DNA from: an uncultured Pelagibacteraceae bacterium | GTDB taxonomy: Bacteria > Pseudomonadota > Alphaproteobacteria > Pelagibacterales > Pelagibacteraceae | Direction of reading: 5' to 3' | NCBI GenBank assembly: GCA_902595465.1 | Contig: CACJQE010000001.1 | Coordinates: forward strand, 89,698-153,697 | Length of the DNA: 64,000 bases | Part shown: positions 3,818 to 50,546 of the stretch, one piece after another | Numbering within the stretch: position 1 is the stretch's first letter | How the letters are laid out: the number at the start of each line of letters is the position of its first letter | Notes under the pieces: model-generated | The model's database searches: none | What the model was told of the DNA's origin: nothing | The model's input: only the letters and a program-made list of their open reading frames with translations | Program-made: the position numbers and the translations under genes

Positions 3818-4668
3818 TTCTTCTTTATTAATTCACTTATAAAAAGTTCACCATCACCATCATCAACGGCTTTTTTATAAAATGATTTTGATAAATCAGA
3901 TAATTTTTCCGCATTATCCATGCCTTTTAGTAAATCTGTGATATACGTTAAATCTTTTAGTGTATTAGTCGCTGTAAACTTAAAACCTGTGTAATCATCC
4001 TCTAAAACATTATCAAAAATTCTCTTTAAAGCATTAGAATTACCTGATCCTAATTGTGCTACTTTATAAAGTTTATCTAAATCAATATCTAATTTTTTTG
4101 CAGCTTTTATTAATTCAATTACATAAGTAGCTGTTCCTAAAGATAGAAAATTATTTAATAATTTTGTTTTTGCACCATTTCCAATTCCACCAAAATGATA
4201 ATAATTTTTACAAAAGCACTTTAAAAGTTCTTCTGATCTTTTTAAATTTTCCTCAGATCCACCAACAATTCCTCCCAGTATTCCCTCTTCTGCTTGAACA
4301 GGGCCTCCCATTACAGGGCACTCTAAATAAGGAATGTTATTTGCATTTAATATTTGCTCCATTTCAATAGATCCATTTTGATTATGGGTTGTAATATCAA
4401 TTATGATTGTCTTATTGGTCAGTAATGAAACTATTTTTTTTCCAATTTCATGGGCAATAGGAGAATTCGTAACACATAAAAACAAGGCATCTAATCCACT
4501 TTTGCAAAGTTCTTCATAAGATTTAACTTCTTTTGCGCCCTCTCTAACTATTCTATCAATTGGCTTTCTGTTCTTGTTGGCAATTACAAATAATTCATGA
4601 TTATTTTTAAGAATGTTATTTGCGATACCAAATCCCATCCATCCGACACCTACAAATCCAATTTTCAT
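3814..4668 (-). CDS. NAD-binding 6-phosphogluconate / 3-hydroxyisobutyrate dehydrogenase-like protein
   Basis: N-terminal MKIGFVGVGWMGFGIANNIL (GxGxxG-type Rossmann) and GNGAKTKLLNNFL catalytic Lys region. Confidence 0.88.
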   Translation of the reverse strand: MKIGFVGVGWMGFGIANNILKNNHELFVIANKNRKPIDRIVREGAKEVKSYEELCKSGLDALFLCVTNSPIAHEIGKKIVSLLTNKTIIIDITTHNQNGSIEMEQILNANNIPYLECPVMGGPVQAEEGILGGIVGGSEENLKRSEELLKCFCKNYYHFGGIGNGAKTKLLNNFLSLGTATYVIELIKAAKKLDIDLDKLYKVAQLGSGNSNALKRIFDNVLEDDYTGFKFTATNTLKDLTYITDLLKGMDNAEKLSDLSKSFYKKAVDDGDGELFISELIKKN

Positions 4669-4676
4669 ACTTTAAA

Positions 4677-5729
4677 CTAATTATTGTTCAATAATTTATT
4701 TTTTAATAATTCAAATTCTTCTTTGCTTATTAATCCAGATTTATACATTTCATTAAGATCTTTGATCTTGGTCATTATATCATCGACACTTAATTCACTT
4801 TCGCTATTAACTTTCTTTTCTTTTTGTTCTGCAGCTTTCTTTGCTTTTTCGTCTTTAGCTTTTTGTTCTGCAGCTTTCTTTGCTTTTTCTTCTGTTATAA
4901 TATTTATCTTATCTTGTGTAATTTCAAAATTTGAAATTTTGTTTTTAAAATTATTTTTAAAATAACTCAAATCGATACTTGGATCAAAACCTTCATAAGT
5001 CAAATCAATTTTTCTTCTAATATTTAATTTATTTTGAAATTCTTGATGTCTTTTTAATGATAAATAAATCCAACTATTCATTTTATTATTAATATTTGGA
5101 TAATTTTCAATTATATTTGGATGAAACTTTGTTATTTTATCAATAAATATATTTTCTTTTAAGATTTCATTATAATTAAACATATGACCGACCCATATTA
5201 AATCACCGCCTTTAATATACACATGGTCTGATTTAATTACTCTCTCTGGTAATTGAACATTATGTTTTTTTTTTAATTTTTTTATTGCTCTTTTGAATTC
5301 AACGAAATCATCTTGTTGATTTAAATATTTAATCAAATCAAATTCTTTAATTACTAATCCATTTGTAAAACCTGAGTCATATAAATTGAAATTATTAATT
5401 TCATTTTCATAAAAAAGTGCTGTTTTCTTTTGTTTAAAGAAATAATCAATCCACCAATTTTTCATATAAGCTCCATATTTCATACCCTTGTATTGTACAG
5501 TGGTAACTATTGATTTTATTTGATTGTTATCGGTTTTTTCAGCATAAATTCTTATTTTAGCTTTTCCAAATCCTTCATCTATACTCCCACTTGATTTAAT
5601 TAATTTATCTTTTTCAAATAATTCAATTTCTAATTTGCCTATTTTCAAAATTTCTGCATTTGATGTGTTTATTAAAAAAAATAAATAAATTACTGAGTAA
5701 AAAAATAATTTCATGACAAATTTTAACAT
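4677..5729 (-). CDS. Putative exported protein with charged 13-aa repeat and SHOCT-like C-terminus
   Basis: Signal-peptide-like N-terminus; AEEKAKKAAEQKAKDEKAKKAAEQKEKK repeat; C-terminal DIMTKIKDLNEMYKSGLISKEEFELLKNKLL resembles SHOCT. Confidence 0.6.
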   Translation of the reverse strand: MLKFVMKLFFYSVIYLFFLINTSNAEILKIGKLEIELFEKDKLIKSSGSIDEGFGKAKIRIYAEKTDNNQIKSIVTTVQYKGMKYGAYMKNWWIDYFFKQKKTALFYENEINNFNLYDSGFTNGLVIKEFDLIKYLNQQDDFVEFKRAIKKLKKKHNVQLPERVIKSDHVYIKGGDLIWVGHMFNYNEILKENIFIDKITKFHPNIIENYPNINNKMNSWIYLSLKRHQEFQNKLNIRRKIDLTYEGFDPSIDLSYFKNNFKNKISNFEITQDKINIITEEKAKKAAEQKAKDEKAKKAAEQKEKKVNSESELSVDDIMTKIKDLNEMYKSGLISKEEFELLKNKLLNNN

Positions 5730-6435: not shown

Positions 6436-7914
6436 TTATAATAGAGCTTTCTGAACTGATAATTTCCAACCATTTATTAAATCGTTCCTAACTTTTCGGT
6501 TTATTTTAGGCTTAAAAATTTTATCTTTTTTCCATTTCCTCTTGATTTGATATAATGATTTAAATAATCCAATTTGATATCCAGCTAGTAAAGCTACTCC
6601 TAAACCAGTTGTTTCTAATACCTTTGGTCTTTCTGTATTTATATTTATGATGTCAGATAAAAATTGCGAAAACCAGTTGTTTTTTACCATGCCTCCATCA
6701 ATCTTAAGTTTAGTTGGTTTTAAACCATCTTTTTTCATTGCATTAAATAAATCATTACTTTGATAGGCAACTGACTCTAATACTGCTCTAACTAAGGTTT
6801 TCCAATCACTATTTCTTGTTAAACCTGTTATTACCCCTCTTGCATCAGGCCTCCAATAAGGTGCTCCCATTCCACTGAAGGCAGGCACAACGTATACACC
6901 CTCATTATTTTTTTTTGATTGAGCAATTGTTTCCGTATCAAAAGCATTGTTAATAAATTTTAATTTATCTCTTAACCATTGTACACCTGCACCTGCAATA
7001 AAAATAGATCCTTCAAGAGCATAAGTATTTTTTCCATTCAATCTGTAACATATTGTTGTTAATAATTTATTTTTAGAATAAATTTTTTTTGAACCAGTAT
7101 TCATTATGACAAAGGCACCAGTTCCATATGTGCTTTTTACTGAACCTCTTTCAAAGCATGACTGTCCTACTGCAGCTGCTTGTTGGTCTCCTAGAACTGC
7201 TGATATTGGTATTTCACTGCCGACAATTCTCTTACTTGTTAAACCAAAATTATCAGCTGAATTTTTAACTTTTGGCAAAATATTTTCAGAAATTTTAAGT
7301 TTTTTTAAGATTTCTTTATCCCATTTATTATTATTAATGTTAAATAACATGGTCCTACAAGCATTAGTTGCTTCTGTTAAATGATGTTGCCCATTAGTAA
7401 GTTTCCAAATAAGGAAAGTATCAACAGTACCAAATAATAAATTATTTGATTTTAAAAGTTTCTTAACATTTTTTACGTTTTCTAGTATCCATTTAATTTT
7501 AGTTGCAGAAAAATATGGGTCAATAAATAATCCAGTTTTTTTTCTTAAAATTTTTTCATAATTTTTTTTCTTTAACTCTTCACAATAGTCTTGGGTTCTT
7601 CTATCTTGCCAAACAATTGCGTTGTAGACTGGTTTTCCTGTTTTCTTATTCCAAAGAATAGTTGTCTCTCTCTGGTTAGTTATTCCTATACTTAATATTT
7701 TTCCTCTTAATAGTGATGCTTTTTTTATTACTTTTTTCAACGCTTTTAGAGTTGTAAGCCAAATTTCGTTTGGATTATGCTCCACCCATCCATTTTTTGG
7801 AAAATATTGATTAAATTCAAACTGGGATGTAAATTTTATATTACCATCTAAATCAAAGAGAATTGCTCTAGTTGATGTTGTGCCTTGGTCAATAGCAACA
7901 AGAAATTTTTTCAC
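6436..7914 (-). CDS. glpK: Glycerol kinase
   Basis: AIDQGTTSTRAILFD, ITNQRETTILW, WQDRRT, YGTGAFVIMNTG, DGGMVKNNWFSQFLSD. Confidence 0.97.
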   Translation of the reverse strand: MKKFLVAIDQGTTSTRAILFDLDGNIKFTSQFEFNQYFPKNGWVEHNPNEIWLTTLKALKKVIKKASLLRGKILSIGITNQRETTILWNKKTGKPVYNAIVWQDRRTQDYCEELKKKNYEKILRKKTGLFIDPYFSATKIKWILENVKNVKKLLKSNNLLFGTVDTFLIWKLTNGQHHLTEATNACRTMLFNINNNKWDKEILKKLKISENILPKVKNSADNFGLTSKRIVGSEIPISAVLGDQQAAAVGQSCFERGSVKSTYGTGAFVIMNTGSKKIYSKNKLLTTICYRLNGKNTYALEGSIFIAGAGVQWLRDKLKFINNAFDTETIAQSKKNNEGVYVVPAFSGMGAPYWRPDARGVITGLTRNSDWKTLVRAVLESVAYQSNDLFNAMKKDGLKPTKLKIDGGMVKNNWFSQFLSDIININTERPKVLETTGLGVALLAGYQIGLFKSLYQIKRKWKKDKIFKPKINRKVRNDLINGWKLSVQKALL

Positions 7915-7988
7915 AATTTAAGTCTATACCTAAATTTTTTTTTCTAAAAGTAAAAACTAATACAAGCTGGAAGGATATGAAATTTAAA

Positions 7989-9752
7989 TTATTTAGTGAA
8001 AGATTGAGTTGAATATTCTGACAAGGGAAGTTTTGATAAAGTTTTTATCTTTTTGACATAATCTACAAAAGATTGAGCATAGCCGAGATATGTATTTACT
8101 ACTCTTCCTTGCTTAGATATAATTCCAAAAGTTTTATATCCATCTTTACCAGCTGCAATATAGTTATTTGTTGCTACTGTATAAGTCTTACTTGGATTTA
8201 TCTTTACCCAACTCTTGTCTGTTCTACCCTTAAACTCTAAATTTATCACTCTATTTCCTTTACTATTGCTTGCTTGAACATCCCATCTCAATCCAGCAGC
8301 ATATGGATAGGCTCCTGTAGAACCATCTGGAGTTAAAGCATAATCAATTGAGTCTTCCAAAACATTTTTAATTTCTTCTCCACTCATTTTCAATTCTACA
8401 ATAGTATTACTGAAAGGTAATAAAGTATACGCGTCCCCAATTGTAATATTGCCTTCTTTTATATCTATTCTTGTTCCACCACCATTTTGAATTGCAATAT
8501 CACTTAATTTGGACATTTCTCTGAAGGCGTGTGCTACAATATTCGAAATATCGGATCCATTTTTTTCAGTTTTTGATACATCACAAAGTTTTGACTTTCC
8601 TTGTCCAGGAATTCTTTCAAGACATAAATCATCAGTTACTCTGCCAATTACTTCACTGCTTTTTTCTTTAACTTCATTTTTGTATTTTTCTAATATTTTT
8701 GATGCTTGTGCGTCAGCCTCTACGATTGAAATATTTGGATTAACTTCGATAGCCTTGTATACGGCTTCTCTATAATTACCATCTATCTCAACTCTTTTTC
8801 CATTTGAATCTTTTCTCTTAAAGGAATCATCTAACATTATATGTGGTATTCCATCACATGACTTGATGGTGCCATCGTTATTAAACTCGATATTAAGTTC
8901 TCCAACAATTTGAGAATATTCCCATGCTGTAACTATACAAACATCTTCCTCATTTTTATTTTTGACTACAGTTGGGTAGGCCCCATTAGAATTTAGTCCT
9001 ACATTATCGAAATCTCCAGTTAGACTATGAGAATCACCTCCAACTATAACATCAACATCTGTGAGAAGTTTAGCCATGTTAATCTCATTTTTATATCCAT
9101 AATGAGTTAAAAGAATTATCTTATTGATTCCTTGTTGTTTAAGCTTATTTATATTTTCTTGTGCTGAATTAATTTCATCTAAAAATAAAGTTGTGTCGTC
9201 TGGATTTGATGACTCTCTCGTTTTTTTTGAGATCACAATTCCAATTACTCCAATTTTTTGATTTCCTTTATTGATTATAGTGTAAGGTTTAATTTTTTTT
9301 GACAAAGGTGAGTTTATTTTTGCTTTAATGTTTGCTGACAAAACTGGAGTCTTACACTTATCAGTATGAAGATAATCTAAAAACTCAACTAAACTCTTAT
9401 CACCATCATCAAATTCATGATTTCCTATAGCGAAAGCATCAAAACAAATTTGATTCATCATTTCTGCATCTGCTTTGCCCTTGAAAAGAGTGTAATATAA
9501 TGTCCCTGTAATAGCATCACCCGCATGAAGCTTGATAACATTTTCATTTTTTAATTTTAATTCTTTAAATTTTGCTACGACAGATGGAAAACCGCCTGAT
9601 ACAACTCTCGTCTTTTCACCATCTAAATTTAAATCAAGTCTTTTATTTGGTTCCAAATGAGAGTGATGATCATTTATATGTAAAATGGTAATTTTATCTG
9701 CTAAAGCTGATGAACTTAAAATAAGTGAAAAAATAATTAAAAATAATTTCAT
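7989..9752 (-). CDS. 5'-nucleotidase / UDP-sugar hydrolase family metallophosphoesterase (exported)
   Basis: Signal peptide; ILHINDHHSHLEP, GNHEFDDG, LLTHYGY, AIQNGGGTRIDI, AGKDGYKTF. Confidence 0.92.
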   Translation of the reverse strand: MKLFLIIFSLILSSSALADKITILHINDHHSHLEPNKRLDLNLDGEKTRVVSGGFPSVVAKFKELKLKNENVIKLHAGDAITGTLYYTLFKGKADAEMMNQICFDAFAIGNHEFDDGDKSLVEFLDYLHTDKCKTPVLSANIKAKINSPLSKKIKPYTIINKGNQKIGVIGIVISKKTRESSNPDDTTLFLDEINSAQENINKLKQQGINKIILLTHYGYKNEINMAKLLTDVDVIVGGDSHSLTGDFDNVGLNSNGAYPTVVKNKNEEDVCIVTAWEYSQIVGELNIEFNNDGTIKSCDGIPHIMLDDSFKRKDSNGKRVEIDGNYREAVYKAIEVNPNISIVEADAQASKILEKYKNEVKEKSSEVIGRVTDDLCLERIPGQGKSKLCDVSKTEKNGSDISNIVAHAFREMSKLSDIAIQNGGGTRIDIKEGNITIGDAYTLLPFSNTIVELKMSGEEIKNVLEDSIDYALTPDGSTGAYPYAAGLRWDVQASNSKGNRVINLEFKGRTDKSWVKINPSKTYTVATNNYIAAGKDGYKTFGIISKQGRVVNTYLGYAQSFVDYVKKIKTLSKLPLSEYSTQSFTK

Positions 9753-44018: not shown

Positions 44019-45452
44019 CTATAATTTTTGTCTAAATTGGTAAGTTTTATTTAATTCATCAATATCAAATGATTCTATTGATCCATCGGTCCATTTAATT
44101 TCAACTTTAAAGTCTTTTTCGCCTTTTCTTATTCCATAATGAGCTACTGGTTCCATCTGACAAAGATAACCAGATCCTGCATCTATTGTTTTTGAATGAA
44201 TTCTTTTATTTGATTTAATTGTTACTGTTGCACCTCTTGCAGGAGCTCCATACTGATTAAGTGGTTTAATACGTAGATAATTAAATTTTTTAATATCTGC
44301 TTTATATAAAGTTAAAGGTTGAAAGCCTGACTCTCCGTGAGAAACTAATAACTCTAAAATTCCATCGCCATCAACGTCTGCAACAGCTGCTCCAGTTCCA
44401 AGACCAACAGTCTCTAAACCATTTTCCATTTTAATTTCTTTAAATTCTCCACCTTCTAAAACTTTAAAAAGTTTATTTGGTTCTCCAATATTATTCATGA
44501 AAATTTCATCATATCCATCATTATCAAAATCAGCTGAAATAACTGTTCTTATTTTTGTAGGATCATTGTACGGAGATGTTGATATATCTTTAAATTTGTC
44601 ACCATCTAAAACATATGCTCTATGCATTCCATCCCAGTTTGAAGATAAAATATCTAATCTTCCTCTATATAAAAGATCGCTTAAAGCTGTGCCTCTACCA
44701 TTTTCAAATCTATCTTGAACTGCATACTCTTCAGCAACATCTTGGAAAGATCCTTTAGAATTATAGTATAAAAAGTTATCTCCTCTTTCATTTGCAGCAA
44801 AAATATCTGATCGGTCTGAAAGAATGTGTCCAGATACTATGGCTCTACCTCCAGTAATTTTATCGATAGATAACAATTTTGCCTGGTCTTTTATTCGATC
44901 TCTAATTAATTCATAAAATCGAGTTGGACCACCATAATTTGCAACATAAATACCGTATGCACCATCACCATTTCTATCTACACAAACAACTGACCTACCT
45001 GCAGTTAAGTTTAATTCACTTTGATTGATTTCTTTTTCAAATAAATCTTCGAATCTATTGTTATTTAAATCTATTAGTCGATCAGAATAAATTTTTGATC
45101 CACTGTATGTATCAGTATTTAAAAAATATATTTCCTCATAGCCATCTTGATCGATATCACATGCGGCAACACCAATTGTTCTTCTCTCTTCGTCTGTAAA
45201 TATTTTTTCGTTTACTATATTGATTAACTTTCCATCTTTATAAGAAAGCGCTAAATTTTTGAAACCAAAGCCTGTTACCACAAAATCATATTTATTATCT
45301 TTGTTAACATCAGTAACTGAAACTCCATAGCTTAATCGAAACTCATTTTCTACTATTTGATCAGTTATATTTAAGAAAAAATCTTTAGCGTTTGCATAAT
45401 TAAATATTGATAAAATACTGAGAAAAATGAAGATAATTTTTTTCATAATCAA
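44019..45452 (-). CDS. FG-GAP/VCBS repeat protein with ASPIC/UnbV-like C-terminus (CRTAC1-like)
   Basis: Repeated D-x-(D/N)-x-D-G motifs (DVNKDNKYDF, DIDQDGYEE, DRNGDGAYG, DFDNDGYDE, DVDGDGILE); GAPARGATVTIKSNKR..DAGSGYLCQMEPVAHYGI. Confidence 0.85.
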   Translation of the reverse strand: MIMKKIIFIFLSILSIFNYANAKDFFLNITDQIVENEFRLSYGVSVTDVNKDNKYDFVVTGFGFKNLALSYKDGKLINIVNEKIFTDEERRTIGVAACDIDQDGYEEIYFLNTDTYSGSKIYSDRLIDLNNNRFEDLFEKEINQSELNLTAGRSVVCVDRNGDGAYGIYVANYGGPTRFYELIRDRIKDQAKLLSIDKITGGRAIVSGHILSDRSDIFAANERGDNFLYYNSKGSFQDVAEEYAVQDRFENGRGTALSDLLYRGRLDILSSNWDGMHRAYVLDGDKFKDISTSPYNDPTKIRTVISADFDNDGYDEIFMNNIGEPNKLFKVLEGGEFKEIKMENGLETVGLGTGAAVADVDGDGILELLVSHGESGFQPLTLYKADIKKFNYLRIKPLNQYGAPARGATVTIKSNKRIHSKTIDAGSGYLCQMEPVAHYGIRKGEKDFKVEIKWTDGSIESFDIDELNKTYQFRQKL

Positions 45453-45496: not shown

Positions 45497-45694
45497 TTAC
45501 TCTAGTAAGCCTATTATTGAATAAATAACTAACCCTATAATTGCAGCAAAGAAAATTAAAAATGAAATTTGACTAAAAATATTATTCTTTGATCTAATTT
45601 CTCCCTTTTTGTACTTTCTAATCTGAATTATACCAAACCTAATTACTATTAAACCAAGGATTAAAAGCGATACTTTAAATAAAAATTCAATCAT
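45497..45694 (-). CDS. Small two-TM hypothetical protein (65 aa)
   Basis: Two hydrophobic segments; 4-nt overlap with upstream gene. Confidence 0.6.
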   Translation of the reverse strand: MIEFLFKVSLLILGLIVIRFGIIQIRKYKKGEIRSKNNIFSQISFLIFFAAIIGLVIYSIIGLLE

Positions 45695-46236
45695 TTTTTT
45701 TTATTTTTCTTATAATTTTCCATCCATTTGTTAAATAAAATTATTGCATCATTCATGTCTTTTGTTTTATTTGGATGATTCTTAGCTCTGCCTAGCATAG
45801 TTGCAATAACATTTACTTGATATTTTATTGGTCTCTTTTTTATGGCTGAAACAGTAAACAATGCTTTTTCTTTATCTTTAAATCCTAAGCCCTTTAAGGT
45901 TGTCTCTGGTTTATAATCTGAAAATAAAGAAAGATTTAATGGTTTAAATTTTTTATCTTTAATTAGTTTATTCATTGGCATTTTATCAACTATATCAAAG
46001 ATTTTTTTTGTATATACTTTATCTAACTCAATTTTTTTTGTGCCATCAAAACCAATTAAAGTAACTTTAAATTTTTTTGTTTTATCTAATTTTGTAACTA
46101 ATTTTATATATCTTTTGTGGAAGCCTTTAATTTCTTTTTGATACAAATCTTTTGATCTTTTATATTCTGGATGACTGTAATTAGGCGTATTTAGGACTAA
46201 CAATCTACATTTCCATAGATATTTTTTAAAACTCAT
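45691..46236 (-). CDS. Hypothetical protein with DUF4174-like segment
   Basis: VTLIGFDGTKKIELDKVYTKKIFDIVDKMPMN resembles the DUF4174 core. Confidence 0.45.
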   Translation of the reverse strand: MSFKKYLWKCRLLVLNTPNYSHPEYKRSKDLYQKEIKGFHKRYIKLVTKLDKTKKFKVTLIGFDGTKKIELDKVYTKKIFDIVDKMPMNKLIKDKKFKPLNLSLFSDYKPETTLKGLGFKDKEKALFTVSAIKKRPIKYQVNVIATMLGRAKNHPNKTKDMNDAIILFNKWMENYKKNKKK

Positions 46237-46244
46237 TAAAAATA

Positions 46245-48836
46245 TTAATTGTAAATTTTATCTCTTACAAGCTTACTTAATAAACTATATCCAAGTTCGT
46301 TCATATGTAGTGGATCTTCATCGTAAAACTTATCATAACCTGCATTTATCATGGGTGTTGTAATATCAATATAATCCCACATTTTTAAATTGGTTAAGTG
46401 TTTTTTTATCTTTGAATTAGCATCTAAAATTGTTGTCATAAGATCTCTCCTAAAAGGACTAGGCTTAATAGATATAAAAAAACATTTCGCTCTTGGTAGT
46501 TTTTCTTCAACTTGATTAGAAAATAATAAAAATTCTTTTAACAATTCATCGCTATCCATTCCATAACCAATGTCATTATCTCCGGCATAAAAGAAAAGAC
46601 TAGATGGGTTTAAAGGAGCGACCAATCTATCAAAATATCTTCTACAAGAGACTAAAGTTGAACCACCAAAACCTAAATTATAAAGATTATTTATTGATAA
46701 ATCGTTTTTGGCATTATCCCACATTTTAAAAGTTGAACTACCATACAAAGCAACACTGTTATTTGTTTTTGTCTGTTGAAAAGAATTATGTTCCAATTCT
46801 CTCACATCTAATTCAAACTCTTCTTCAACTGGACTCACTAAATTTACATTAGTTTTCAAATTCTCTATTTTATCTATGTTGTCTTGAACATTTTTAGATA
46901 AATCAATAGCTTCTTCTACATAGGATCTAAATTTGGTTCTGTAATTATCTAAGAAGCTTTTCATTTCATCTTGATTTTCTGGATCTTTCACATGATCACT
47001 TATAGTTATTGGCTCCTTAATAACTGCTGAATATATTGTTTTAGAAACTGGATAATCAAAATTAGCAAGGGCAATTGGAATGAGTTTTGGTTTTGGACTA
47101 AGCTTAAAAGCAAGGTTAAATGCTCCTGCTTTAAATGGTCCTGGCGAAGTTATTGTTTTATTATCTTCTGTTTCTGATGTTCCTTCGGGGGCAATTACAA
47201 TCGGTTGTTTTTGATTAAATACTTTTTGAGCTTCATCAAAAAGCTTTTGTTTTCTCTCTTGCTTTTCCTTTTCACTTTCTTCCAACATATCAGACTCTGG
47301 GGTATGAACAAAAATATAATCTAAATTTTCATAATAATTATATCTCCAAAATTCTGTGTTCCGACTTGTTCTAACGATACGTTGACCTCCATCATTATAT
47401 TTTGGATATAATATTTTTGAACTGATGAAATGACTATCTATTGAAAATGAATGTCCATTTGCAAGTTGATTGTCATCTATAGCTGCTAAATGATTGTAAA
47501 AAAAAATATTTGTTGGTTCATCTGGTAAATTTTCCCAACCCTTTATTACATATTTAACATTATCAAAAGCTTTGGTGAAATTAGAATTGGTTAACTCTCT
47601 CAATTTTGTTTTATTAGAATTGTTAGAAGAATTCGATACTCTGTTATAAATTATATTTAATTGATTATGAAAACGGGACTCTCTTTCTAAATTATTTAAG
47701 GTATCTTTTATCAGACTGGATAACGATTTTTCTATCTCATTTCCTTTAATAATTAATTCATAAACAACATCAAATGCCATTGCATACGTATGAGGACTCT
47801 TCAATAAATGTGGTATAGTATATAACTTAGAACTAGCAGGTATTCTTGCTGTATTATCTTTTAATAATAAATTAACAAATTCTAATTCATTTTCTGCAGA
47901 ATACTTGGTTAAACCTGTAGCGCTTTGCTGGAAACGACCTAGTTGCCATAATTGTCTCCTGAAAATTTTTATAGCCATTTGAGGATCTGAAATTGTTAAA
48001 TTTTCAAGTGCCTCATTAGAAATATGAAGAACTTTTGTGTCTCTAGTAGACTTTATCGTATAAGGATTAAAGAAATCTCCTTTTCCAGATGATAAAGTTA
48101 AAGCGATTCCAGCTCTAGTTAAAGTTCTGAAATTTCGTCTTATTTTTCCATTAATGAAATTATGAAATAAACCATCAACTTTACCACTCAATAATATCTT
48201 TAAACCTTTAGAAACATCTCCTTCTTTAACTATATATTGATTTGATGAATACATCTTTATATTACCTAATTTAATAAATTTTTCTAAGTCATCATCAGTA
48301 AGAGTTGAAAAAAAAGTAGCCGATTTAATTCTTTGTATATTTGTTATACTTTTTTCTGATGGGGTACCTGGAGAAATTTGTATTTCATCATCTTTATACA
48401 AAGTGTTTAAATTTCTTGAAGAGACAAGCAGTTGGAAAGAAAAAAACGAAATGGCTGAGTATAATGTAGATATAAGTTTACTATTTTTTTGTTGTAAATC
48501 TATTAAATCATCTAGTTTTATCGAGATATATTCTGTTCCACCTTCAATAAATATTTCACCCATAAATCTATTGGGTTGATTAAGTCCAGATATACCTAAT
48601 GGTGTTGCAGGCTTTGTTATTTTTGCAAAGGTTATAGATTTTGTTTCAAAATACTTGGTAAATGTAGCTTTGCCTTTAATTAAAAAATAAATGTTTTCTG
48701 AAATTTGATGCTGCTTTGCTAAAACTTCATCACTTTCAGCTATTATATGTTCTGATATTCCATCTATTAATCCAAAGGATTCTTTTAGATTTCCTAAATC
48801 AAAGCCATTTTGCTCAAATAATTCAGATAATTTCAT
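46245..48836 (-). CDS. Multidomain protein: cyclic-nucleotide-binding-like domains + PlsC-like acyltransferase + C-terminal SGNH hydrolase
   Basis: Crp-like KQHQISENIYFLIKGKATF and SSNQYIVKEGDVSKGLKILLSGKVDGLF; NHLAAIDD..IVIAPEGTSETED..PGPFKAGAFNLAF; GSSTFKMWDN..NLGFGGSTL..YAGDNDIGYG..DPLHMNELGY. Confidence 0.8.
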   Translation of the reverse strand: MKLSELFEQNGFDLGNLKESFGLIDGISEHIIAESDEVLAKQHQISENIYFLIKGKATFTKYFETKSITFAKITKPATPLGISGLNQPNRFMGEIFIEGGTEYISIKLDDLIDLQQKNSKLISTLYSAISFFSFQLLVSSRNLNTLYKDDEIQISPGTPSEKSITNIQRIKSATFFSTLTDDDLEKFIKLGNIKMYSSNQYIVKEGDVSKGLKILLSGKVDGLFHNFINGKIRRNFRTLTRAGIALTLSSGKGDFFNPYTIKSTRDTKVLHISNEALENLTISDPQMAIKIFRRQLWQLGRFQQSATGLTKYSAENELEFVNLLLKDNTARIPASSKLYTIPHLLKSPHTYAMAFDVVYELIIKGNEIEKSLSSLIKDTLNNLERESRFHNQLNIIYNRVSNSSNNSNKTKLRELTNSNFTKAFDNVKYVIKGWENLPDEPTNIFFYNHLAAIDDNQLANGHSFSIDSHFISSKILYPKYNDGGQRIVRTSRNTEFWRYNYYENLDYIFVHTPESDMLEESEKEKQERKQKLFDEAQKVFNQKQPIVIAPEGTSETEDNKTITSPGPFKAGAFNLAFKLSPKPKLIPIALANFDYPVSKTIYSAVIKEPITISDHVKDPENQDEMKSFLDNYRTKFRSYVEEAIDLSKNVQDNIDKIENLKTNVNLVSPVEEEFELDVRELEHNSFQQTKTNNSVALYGSSTFKMWDNAKNDLSINNLYNLGFGGSTLVSCRRYFDRLVAPLNPSSLFFYAGDNDIGYGMDSDELLKEFLLFSNQVEEKLPRAKCFFISIKPSPFRRDLMTTILDANSKIKKHLTNLKMWDYIDITTPMINAGYDKFYDEDPLHMNELGYSLLSKLVRDKIYN

Positions 48837-49088: not shown

Positions 49089-50546
49089 TTATCTTCTTTG
49101 AGATAAACTCGCGTGTTTGTTTAATATTTCAGCTGAAATAATTTTTGCTTCTGTTGTTTTCTTAACATTCCAGATTTTTTCCTTAGCAATTTTAGTCGAT
49201 ATTTTATTATCAACTATTGGTGATGGATAATCTTTACCAATTTCTAAATTAGTTCCTTTTTGTTCAATGAATGTCAATTTCCATGGTTCATGAATTAATT
49301 TTCCTGGAACATTTTTTAATTCTGGAACCCATTTTTTGATAAAATCTCCAGTGGGATCTTGATCAATTGATTGTTTAATTGGATTGTAAATTCTTATTGA
49401 ATTTATTCCTGTTGTTCCTGATTGCATTTGAAATTGTGAATAATGAATACCTGGCTCATAATCTGTAAATAATTTTGCCAAGTGTTTTGATGTTTTTTTC
49501 CAATCTAGCCACAATTGATAAGACGCAAATGAAACTAACATTGCTCTCATTCTAAAATTAATCCATCCATTAGTTCTAAGATACCTCATACAAGCATCAA
49601 CAAACGGATAACCAGTAGTTCCATTTTTCCATGCTAAATGATAATCTTCATTAAAATCATTTTCTCTTATTCCATTATAAGCGCTATTCATATTTCTAAA
49701 TTCAATTTCTGGTTCATCATATAACTTTTGAATAAAATGACAGTGCCAGGCTAATCGACTTTTAAAAGCAATTAAGGATTTCTTTTTTGAAAAAGATAAA
49801 TTGGATTTTAACTTATCATTAGTTTTATTAAAAATTTCTTTAATAGAAATATTTCCAAATGCAATATGAGGACTTAATCTAGAACAAGAAGTTTCTCCTG
49901 TTATCGGCGAAGACATTTCTTTTTGGTAATTTTCTGATCTGTCATTAAGGAAAGAATCTAATAGTTGAAGTGCGTTTTGTCTTCCACCAATTTGAATTTT
50001 TCCATTTTCTAAATTATTTGTTTCTACTTTCGATAAATCTTCTAAATAATTATCTGAAATAAACTCGCAATTTAAATTTGAATGAACACTTTCACTATTT
50101 ATGAATTTATTCCAATTATATGACCATTTATTTCTAATTCTATGATTTAATTGAACGCCAAATTGATTTGATATTTTCCAGTTAATATTTTTTTCTTTAA
50201 ATAAAAAACTAACTTCTTTATCTAAGTTAGTTATATACATGTTCTTGAATATTATATTTGAATAAACCTCATTTATTTTAAATTTATTAGTTAAATGACT
50301 TAAAATTTCTAATGTATCTCCATAATATATATTGAGTTTAGCATTATATTTTTCACTTAGTGTTTTTGATAATTCGTATAATGATGATTTTAAAAAATCT
50401 AAATGGAATGAACTTGATGTAGGTAATTTGAGATACTCTTTATCAAATATGTAAATTGGTAAAATCTTTCCTGATTTTGCCGCTTCATTAAATGCATCAT
50501 TATTAGATACACGTAGATCGTTCCTGAACCATACGATTTTGTTCAT
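49089..50546 (-). CDS. phrB: Deoxyribodipyrimidine photolyase (cryptochrome/photolyase family)
   Basis: [62 protein letters not shown]. Confidence 0.94.

Follow-up and report, generated by a model that had tools for sequence, protein, structure and literature searches.

The pairing of a CNB-acyltransferase protein with a hydrolase is conserved even where the two are not fused, which is the main new result of our analysis. The window (the whole stretch of DNA analysed, 64,000 nt from an uncultured Pelagibacteraceae bacterium) carries a gene, present in a single copy in the genome, in which two cyclic-nucleotide-binding-type (CNB) domains, a helical region, a PlsC/GPAT-type acyltransferase domain and an SGNH hydrolase domain follow each other in one chain. 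In relatives the esterase is either fused in the same way, encoded by an adjacent SGNH gene or represented by a nearby AXE1 gene, which supports the view that the CNB-acyltransferase and an esterase are functional partners. Each of the domain families is already known. A search of open-access literature, which leaves out most subscription papers, gave no description of the fusion with this domain order, nor of its split forms, of those with a substituted esterase, of the exchange of hydrolases or of the non-canonical motif in the acyltransferase.

Domain architecture and occurrence

The fusion gene and its parts are located as follows (homologue counts refer to the relatives described below).

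46245..48836 (-): gene for the CNB-CNB-helical-acyltransferase-SGNH protein, 863 aa, ATG start
48417..48779 (-): CNB1, Crp-type, residues about 20-140, cassette G81-I-S-G-L-N-Q-P-N-R90-F without Glu, Arg kept
47937..48338 (-): CNB2, Crp-type with degenerate cassette, residues about 167-300, PF00027 at residues 195-281
47562..47936 (-): helical region preceding the acyltransferase, residues 301-425, fold match from a model of modest confidence
46887..47561 (-): PlsC/GPAT-type acyltransferase domain, residues about 426-650, PF01553 and profile match to PlsC
47490..47495 (-): acyltransferase motif I, Asn448 (117/117 homologues) and His449 (114/117)
47436..47438 (-): Asp467, acidic residue co-occurring with His449 (114/117)
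47178..47186 (-): acyltransferase motif III, Glu551-Gly552 (117/117) and Thr553 (93/117)
46248..46760 (-): SGNH/GDSL hydrolase, residues 693-863, with GSS (Ser701), GFGGS, GDND (Asn754) and DPLH (Asp841/His844)

A first-pass annotation of this DNA had proposed the order CNB-CNB / PlsC-like / SGNH. This assignment is backed by Pfam, by fold searches and by its recurrence in relatives, and the motifs quoted for it (cNMP-like segments, NHLAAIDD, PGPFKAGAF and the SGNH blocks) are all found in the window protein. In the domain search, which was combined with structure prediction, both the cNMP-binding and the acyltransferase match lie above the Pfam cut-off: cNMP_binding (PF00027) reaches 35.2 bits versus 27.5 in two stretches, the best at residues 195-281, and Acyltransferase (PF01553) 31.8 bits versus 23 at residues 502-590. 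Lipase_GDSL_2 (PF13472) is 0.2 bits short in the window protein (32.7 versus 32.9 bits, residues 715-851) and well above the cut-off in the relatives L104, L112 and L083 (40.5-56.6 bits). PDB sequence matches comprise the CNB protein 3mdp and the SGNH esterases 7pzg, 6njc and 3p94. In the SGNH domain, each of the 111 aligned members that bear it has Ser701, Asn754, Asp841 and His844, and the block II glycine (724/725) is nearly invariant among them as well; the retention of the Ser/Asp/His residues, as read from the single sequence before, thus extends to the whole set.

A locus search found 117 relatives of the window protein, and nearly all of the 80 loci fetched from these show the full-length order. 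Close relatives among the fetched loci belong to uncultured Pelagibacteraceae (85-100% identity) and to another uncultured alphaproteobacterial group (55-57%). Within the SAR11 family the gene occurs in 17 of 197 genomes and 2 of 12 genera and is therefore an accessory gene there; a survey across SAR11, as suggested in the first-pass annotation, found the order conserved where the gene is present. Fused full-length relatives of ~28-30% identity exist in the alphaproteobacterial f118 (3/3 genomes examined) and the gammaproteobacterial f203. In one f203 genus the acyltransferase region is found in 50/50 genomes, almost always in frames of 867-933 aa. The f203 genome G1128 carries two copies, and the divergent second one (L163) groups near the SAR11/f142 lineage in the trees of both domains, which suggests horizontal transfer. 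Phage relatives of the f203 protein were looked for and none were found, and a scan of IMG/VR with the family profile gave no match. SGNH-less CNB-CNB-acyltransferase proteins of about 646-706 aa are encoded by two members of f177, a family in another Pseudomonadota class, and by the gammaproteobacterium G1079. The alphaproteobacterium G184 has two adjacent ORFs, one for a single CNB domain and the other for CNB plus acyltransferase.

All domains of the fusion are under purifying selection in SAR11: dN/dS between the window gene and L040 (85% identical) is 0.06-0.11 in every domain by a simple Nei-Gojobori calculation, for which synonymous sites are near saturation.

Hydrolase partners in split and SGNH-less relatives

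On a plasmid of Persicobacter sp. JZB09 (Bacteroidota) the protein is split into a CNB-CNB-acyltransferase gene (L128:5926-7893) and an SGNH gene (7895-8524) separated by only 1 bp. All four SGNH-less members examined have an esterase gene of the AXE1 family (PF05448) within one gene, in varying orientation:

L134:6937-7959: AXE1 gene, convergent, overlapping the CNB-acyltransferase gene
L133:5202-6263: AXE1 gene, divergent, overlapping the CNB-acyltransferase gene
L136:about 4084-5052: AXE1 gene, divergent, beyond the split CNB gene
L135:11903-12853: AXE1 gene, one gene away from the CNB-acyltransferase gene

The varying orientation argues against passive synteny. In each of these four genomes (3.8-5.5 Mb) the AXE1 gene is the sole one, and 8 of the 9 SGNH-bearing genomes covered by the same search have none; the ninth has a partial match of 24 bits in a 721-aa frame elsewhere. 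We estimate the chance for a sole AXE1 gene to lie within about 5 kb in a genome of 4-5 Mb at ~1 in 500 per genome, with the caveat that the two f177 genomes are partly dependent on each other. The AXE1 neighbours in SGNH-less members and the Persicobacter split speak for a functional pairing of CNB-acyltransferase and esterase, and the earlier suggestion of a link between acyl transfer and acyl hydrolysis gains support from genomes in which they are separate genes.

Conservation of the acyltransferase and CNB motifs

The acyltransferase assignment holds across the family: PF01553 is matched at E below 1 by 9 of 9 diverse members, and motifs I and III are recovered when the profile is aligned with PlsC (E about 1e-5); the gap of this alignment falls after the HX4D position. 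The motifs themselves are non-canonical. The first-pass annotation had stated that the acyltransferase His (NH..DD) appears retained. This is true for the window protein, in which the HX4D motif is present (His449 and Asp454), and for His across the family (114/117); it does not apply to the Asp, whose position is D/E in 93 of 117 homologues, the other 24 having P, T, M, S or A there. An insertion might have shifted the HX4D Asp to position 467; with the gap of the PlsC alignment lying after the HX4D position, we take this as no more than one possibility. The Arg of the canonical EGTR is absent as well, with Ser554 in the window protein and Ser in 112/117 homologues. Arg486 is found in 114/117 homologues and Arg489 is also conserved. 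Since the HX4D Asp is not conserved and the EGTR Arg is missing, the acyltransferase may have an unusual activity or substrate.

In the f118 proteins L083, L084 and L147, His449 is replaced by Ser, Asp467 by Cys and Arg486 by Trp, and an 18-residue block holding Glu495 is missing, while the SGNH catalytic residues are intact. Their acyltransferase domain is likely a pseudo-acyltransferase. With the acyltransferase site lost and the SGNH domain kept, acyl transfer seems dispensable in some members and bifunctionality is thus apparently not universal.

An AlphaFold model of the helical region and acyltransferase domain was built from 43 sequences, close homologues only, and has a low mean pLDDT of 53. 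Its top Foldseek matches are 1iuq, 1k30 and 8ia1 (E 5e-5 to 1e-4, TM about 0.43-0.46). According to this weak model, both regions would be closest in fold to soluble glycerol-3-phosphate acyltransferases, to which a PDB search gave no sequence-level match. Elsewhere in the genome of the window a separate, stronger PlsC (82 bits) is encoded; hence the fusion protein cannot be equated with the housekeeping LPA acyltransferase. As a side observation, the housekeeping PlsC at the SAR11 loci L172, L177, L179, L180, L183, L185 and L186 reads PQGTR instead of PEGTR and seemingly has Glu at the HX4D Asp position.

The full-length AlphaFold model is likewise of low confidence (mean pLDDT 52-53 for the two models) and was used for the CNB part alone, a better-predicted portion. 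Here the tandem CNB fold matches PKG and the regulatory subunits of PKA with E about 1e-11. The first-pass annotation had proposed to check the residues of the phosphate-binding cassette. The equivalent of the CNB1 cassette reads G-[IWV]-S-x-x-x-x-P-x-R across homologues. Arg90 is kept in 115/115 of them; the Glu responsible for the contact to the cNMP ribose is missing from 115/115, with I, W or V after G81 instead, and the cassette of CNB2 is degenerate and also devoid of Glu. No class III cyclase was detected in 59 SAR11 genomes of the genus, in a search in which the controls (Caulobacter and others) were positive. Owing to the missing Glu and the missing class III cyclases, the CNB pair is probably no cNMP sensor, and a reading as cyclic-nucleotide sensor is not supported. 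The ligand is probably neither cAMP nor cGMP.

Proposed function, alternatives and known systems

We propose that the fusion protein is a paired acyl-addition and acyl-removal enzyme for a glycerolipid-type substrate, equipped with a CNB-like regulatory or targeting module, and give this reading an even chance. The protein would be a soluble or peripheral-membrane acyl-turnover enzyme, whose PlsC/GPAT-type domain would place an acyl group on an acceptor and whose SGNH domain would strip an ester-linked one. In this way one chain could run a Lands-like cycle of deacylation and reacylation on the same or related glycerolipid-type molecules, with lipid repair as a possible role. The tandem CNB module may act as a regulatory or targeting domain, most likely not cyclic-nucleotide-binding, in which binding of a ligand or partner would set the balance of both reactions or place the enzyme at the membrane. 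We infer catalysis by either domain, the shared substrate, the lipid identity, the coupling and the CNB regulation; membrane sensing and switchability, as envisaged in the first-pass annotation, and the identity of the CNB ligand are of the same kind. More tentative, and rather doubtful at present, is the wider idea of a CNB-gated acyl editing in abundant marine bacteria, in which a GPAT/PlsC-type acyltransferase would be obligately partnered with an interchangeable esterase and respond to a non-cyclic-nucleotide ligand in order to drive deacylation and reacylation.

The acceptor might be no phospholipid at all. In this case a small molecule or glycan-like lipid would be O-acylated and deacylated, the SGNH or AXE1 enzyme serving as short-chain deacylase. 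Both the name of AXE1 enzymes and the known biology of their family point to acetyl esterases, the AXE1 family and the GDSL subfamily of the fusion often being short-chain (acetyl) esterases unlike a classical phospholipase. In the PDB, the SGNH domain finds its best sequence matches among lysophospholipase-L1/sialate-acetylesterase types. In PlsC-type enzymes the EGTR Arg serves the acceptor phosphate, and precisely this residue is missing from motif III. However, Arg486 and Arg489 could stand in for it, and the profile matches PlsC and the fold of the weak model glycerol-3-phosphate acyltransferases. We take a non-phospholipid acceptor to be unlikely, if the strongest of the competing explanations. 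Somewhat less credible is a CNB-gated hydrolase in which catalysis would fall to the SGNH/AXE1 esterase, with the acyltransferase-like domain serving mainly as a platform for structure or lipid binding. This would be in line with f118, which kept the SGNH domain and lost the acyltransferase site, with the loss of the HX4D Asp in 24/117 homologues and with the precedent of NTE/PNPLA6, a lipid hydrolase that carries CNB domains (PMC9319352). Yet His449, Asp467, Arg486 and the EG of motif III hardly vary elsewhere (114-117 of 117), purifying selection acts on the acyltransferase of SAR11, and SGNH-less members keep the CNB domains covalently attached to the acyltransferase and not to the hydrolase.

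The genomic neighbourhood bears on another alternative. It contains the following genes next to the fusion gene:

45691..46236 (-): gene for a 181-aa DUF4174 protein, 8 bp downstream of the fusion gene
49089..50546 (-): photolyase/cryptochrome gene (FAD_binding_7 and DNA_photolyase), 252 bp upstream of the fusion gene

The DUF4174 neighbour is restricted to the SAR11 g1 lineage, including L040, and the C-terminal half of its protein has no domain assignment. An FG-GAP / ASPIC-UnbV repeat protein (window 44019-45452) is conserved downstream in g1. As to the photolyase, one may imagine a photo-oxidative lipid repair in sunlit SAR11, in which acyl chains that are oxidised or truncated would be cut out by the SGNH domain, like by a PAF-acetylhydrolase, and the acyltransferase would refill the position, alongside photolyases. 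Photolyase-family genes are indeed nearby in three SAR11-side contexts: the upstream photolyase is linked to the fusion gene in g1, a photolyase-related DPRP gene and an FAD_binding_7-only gene lie close to it on either side in g226, and DPRP and a flavin amine oxidoreductase are found a few genes away in f142. Moreover, the 10 sampled g1 genomes with the fusion gene are exactly those that have the close photolyase orthologue. These 10 genomes, however, are near-identical in the fusion protein and probably reflect one event, L040 has no photolyase upstream in spite of 85% identity, and no such neighbour is seen at the loci examined from Gammaproteobacteria, f118, f177 and Persicobacter. The co-occurrence in g1 thus amounts to one clade, with other lineages being without the link, and the linkage was rejected as proof of photo-oxidative repair, an explanation that we rank just behind the CNB-gated hydrolase. 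The g226 gene beside the fusion gene at L143:6358-7494 has the FAD_binding_7 part only and no DNA_photolyase match. A lipid remodelling switched by cAMP or cGMP, finally, would be the literal reading of the CNB domains. The Pfam score above cut-off and the universal cassette Arg would agree with it, but the universal lack of the CNB1 Glu, the degenerate CNB2 cassette and the lack of cyclases in the 59 genomes (a search for class III only) render it highly improbable.

Bacteria usually use separate enzymes with little connection for the deacylation and the reacylation of their lipids. If the paired acyl-addition and acyl-removal reading is true, a single chain with both reactions under a sensor-like module, kept in the streamlined genomes of SAR11, would offer a direct handle on how abundant ocean bacteria edit or repair acyl chains without cyclic-nucleotide signalling. 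The replacement of SGNH by an unrelated neighbouring AXE1 esterase provides a gene-neighbourhood test that anyone can extend, and the coupling hypothesis is testable in the gammaproteobacterial genus, in which every sampled species has the gene.

Among known systems, NTE/PNPLA6 and its relatives resemble the fusion by bearing tandem CNB-like domains on a lipid deacylase. Three CNB domains accompany the phospholipase there; cAMP binding is undemonstrated, cAMP has no effect on activity in vitro, and the domains affect localisation (PMC9319352). Another group takes CNB mutations of NTE/PNPLA6 as evidence for regulation by cNMPs (PMC6852622). The differences are a patatin catalytic domain, for which Pfam gives no match in the window protein, a transmembrane anchor, the number of three CNB domains, the lack of an acyltransferase and the eukaryotic origin. 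The PKA regulatory subunit and PKG share two consecutive CNB domains of matching fold, whereas the phosphate-binding cassette of the fusion has no Glu and no kinase is involved. With the PlsC/LPLAT superfamily (PF01553) the protein shares acyltransferase homology by HMM, and its weak model suggests a helical-plus-acyltransferase fold as in the soluble plastid GPAT (1iuq, 1k30); unlike in PlsC/LPLAT enzymes the HX4D Asp and EGTR Arg are not conserved in its family, and the protein is fused to CNB and SGNH domains and exists in a host with a separate canonical PlsC. The Ser, Gly, Asn and Asp-x-x-His blocks of GDSL_2/SGNH esterases (PF13472) are conserved, but here they form the C-terminal part of a large multidomain protein with no N-terminal export signal by eye. 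Acyltransferase and SGNH hydrolase are also combined in one chain in the Acyltransferase_3-SGNH fusions of OatA/OafA type. These use the integral-membrane AT3, which has another fold, whereas the acyltransferase of the fusion described here is of PlsC/GPAT type and not membrane-spanning.
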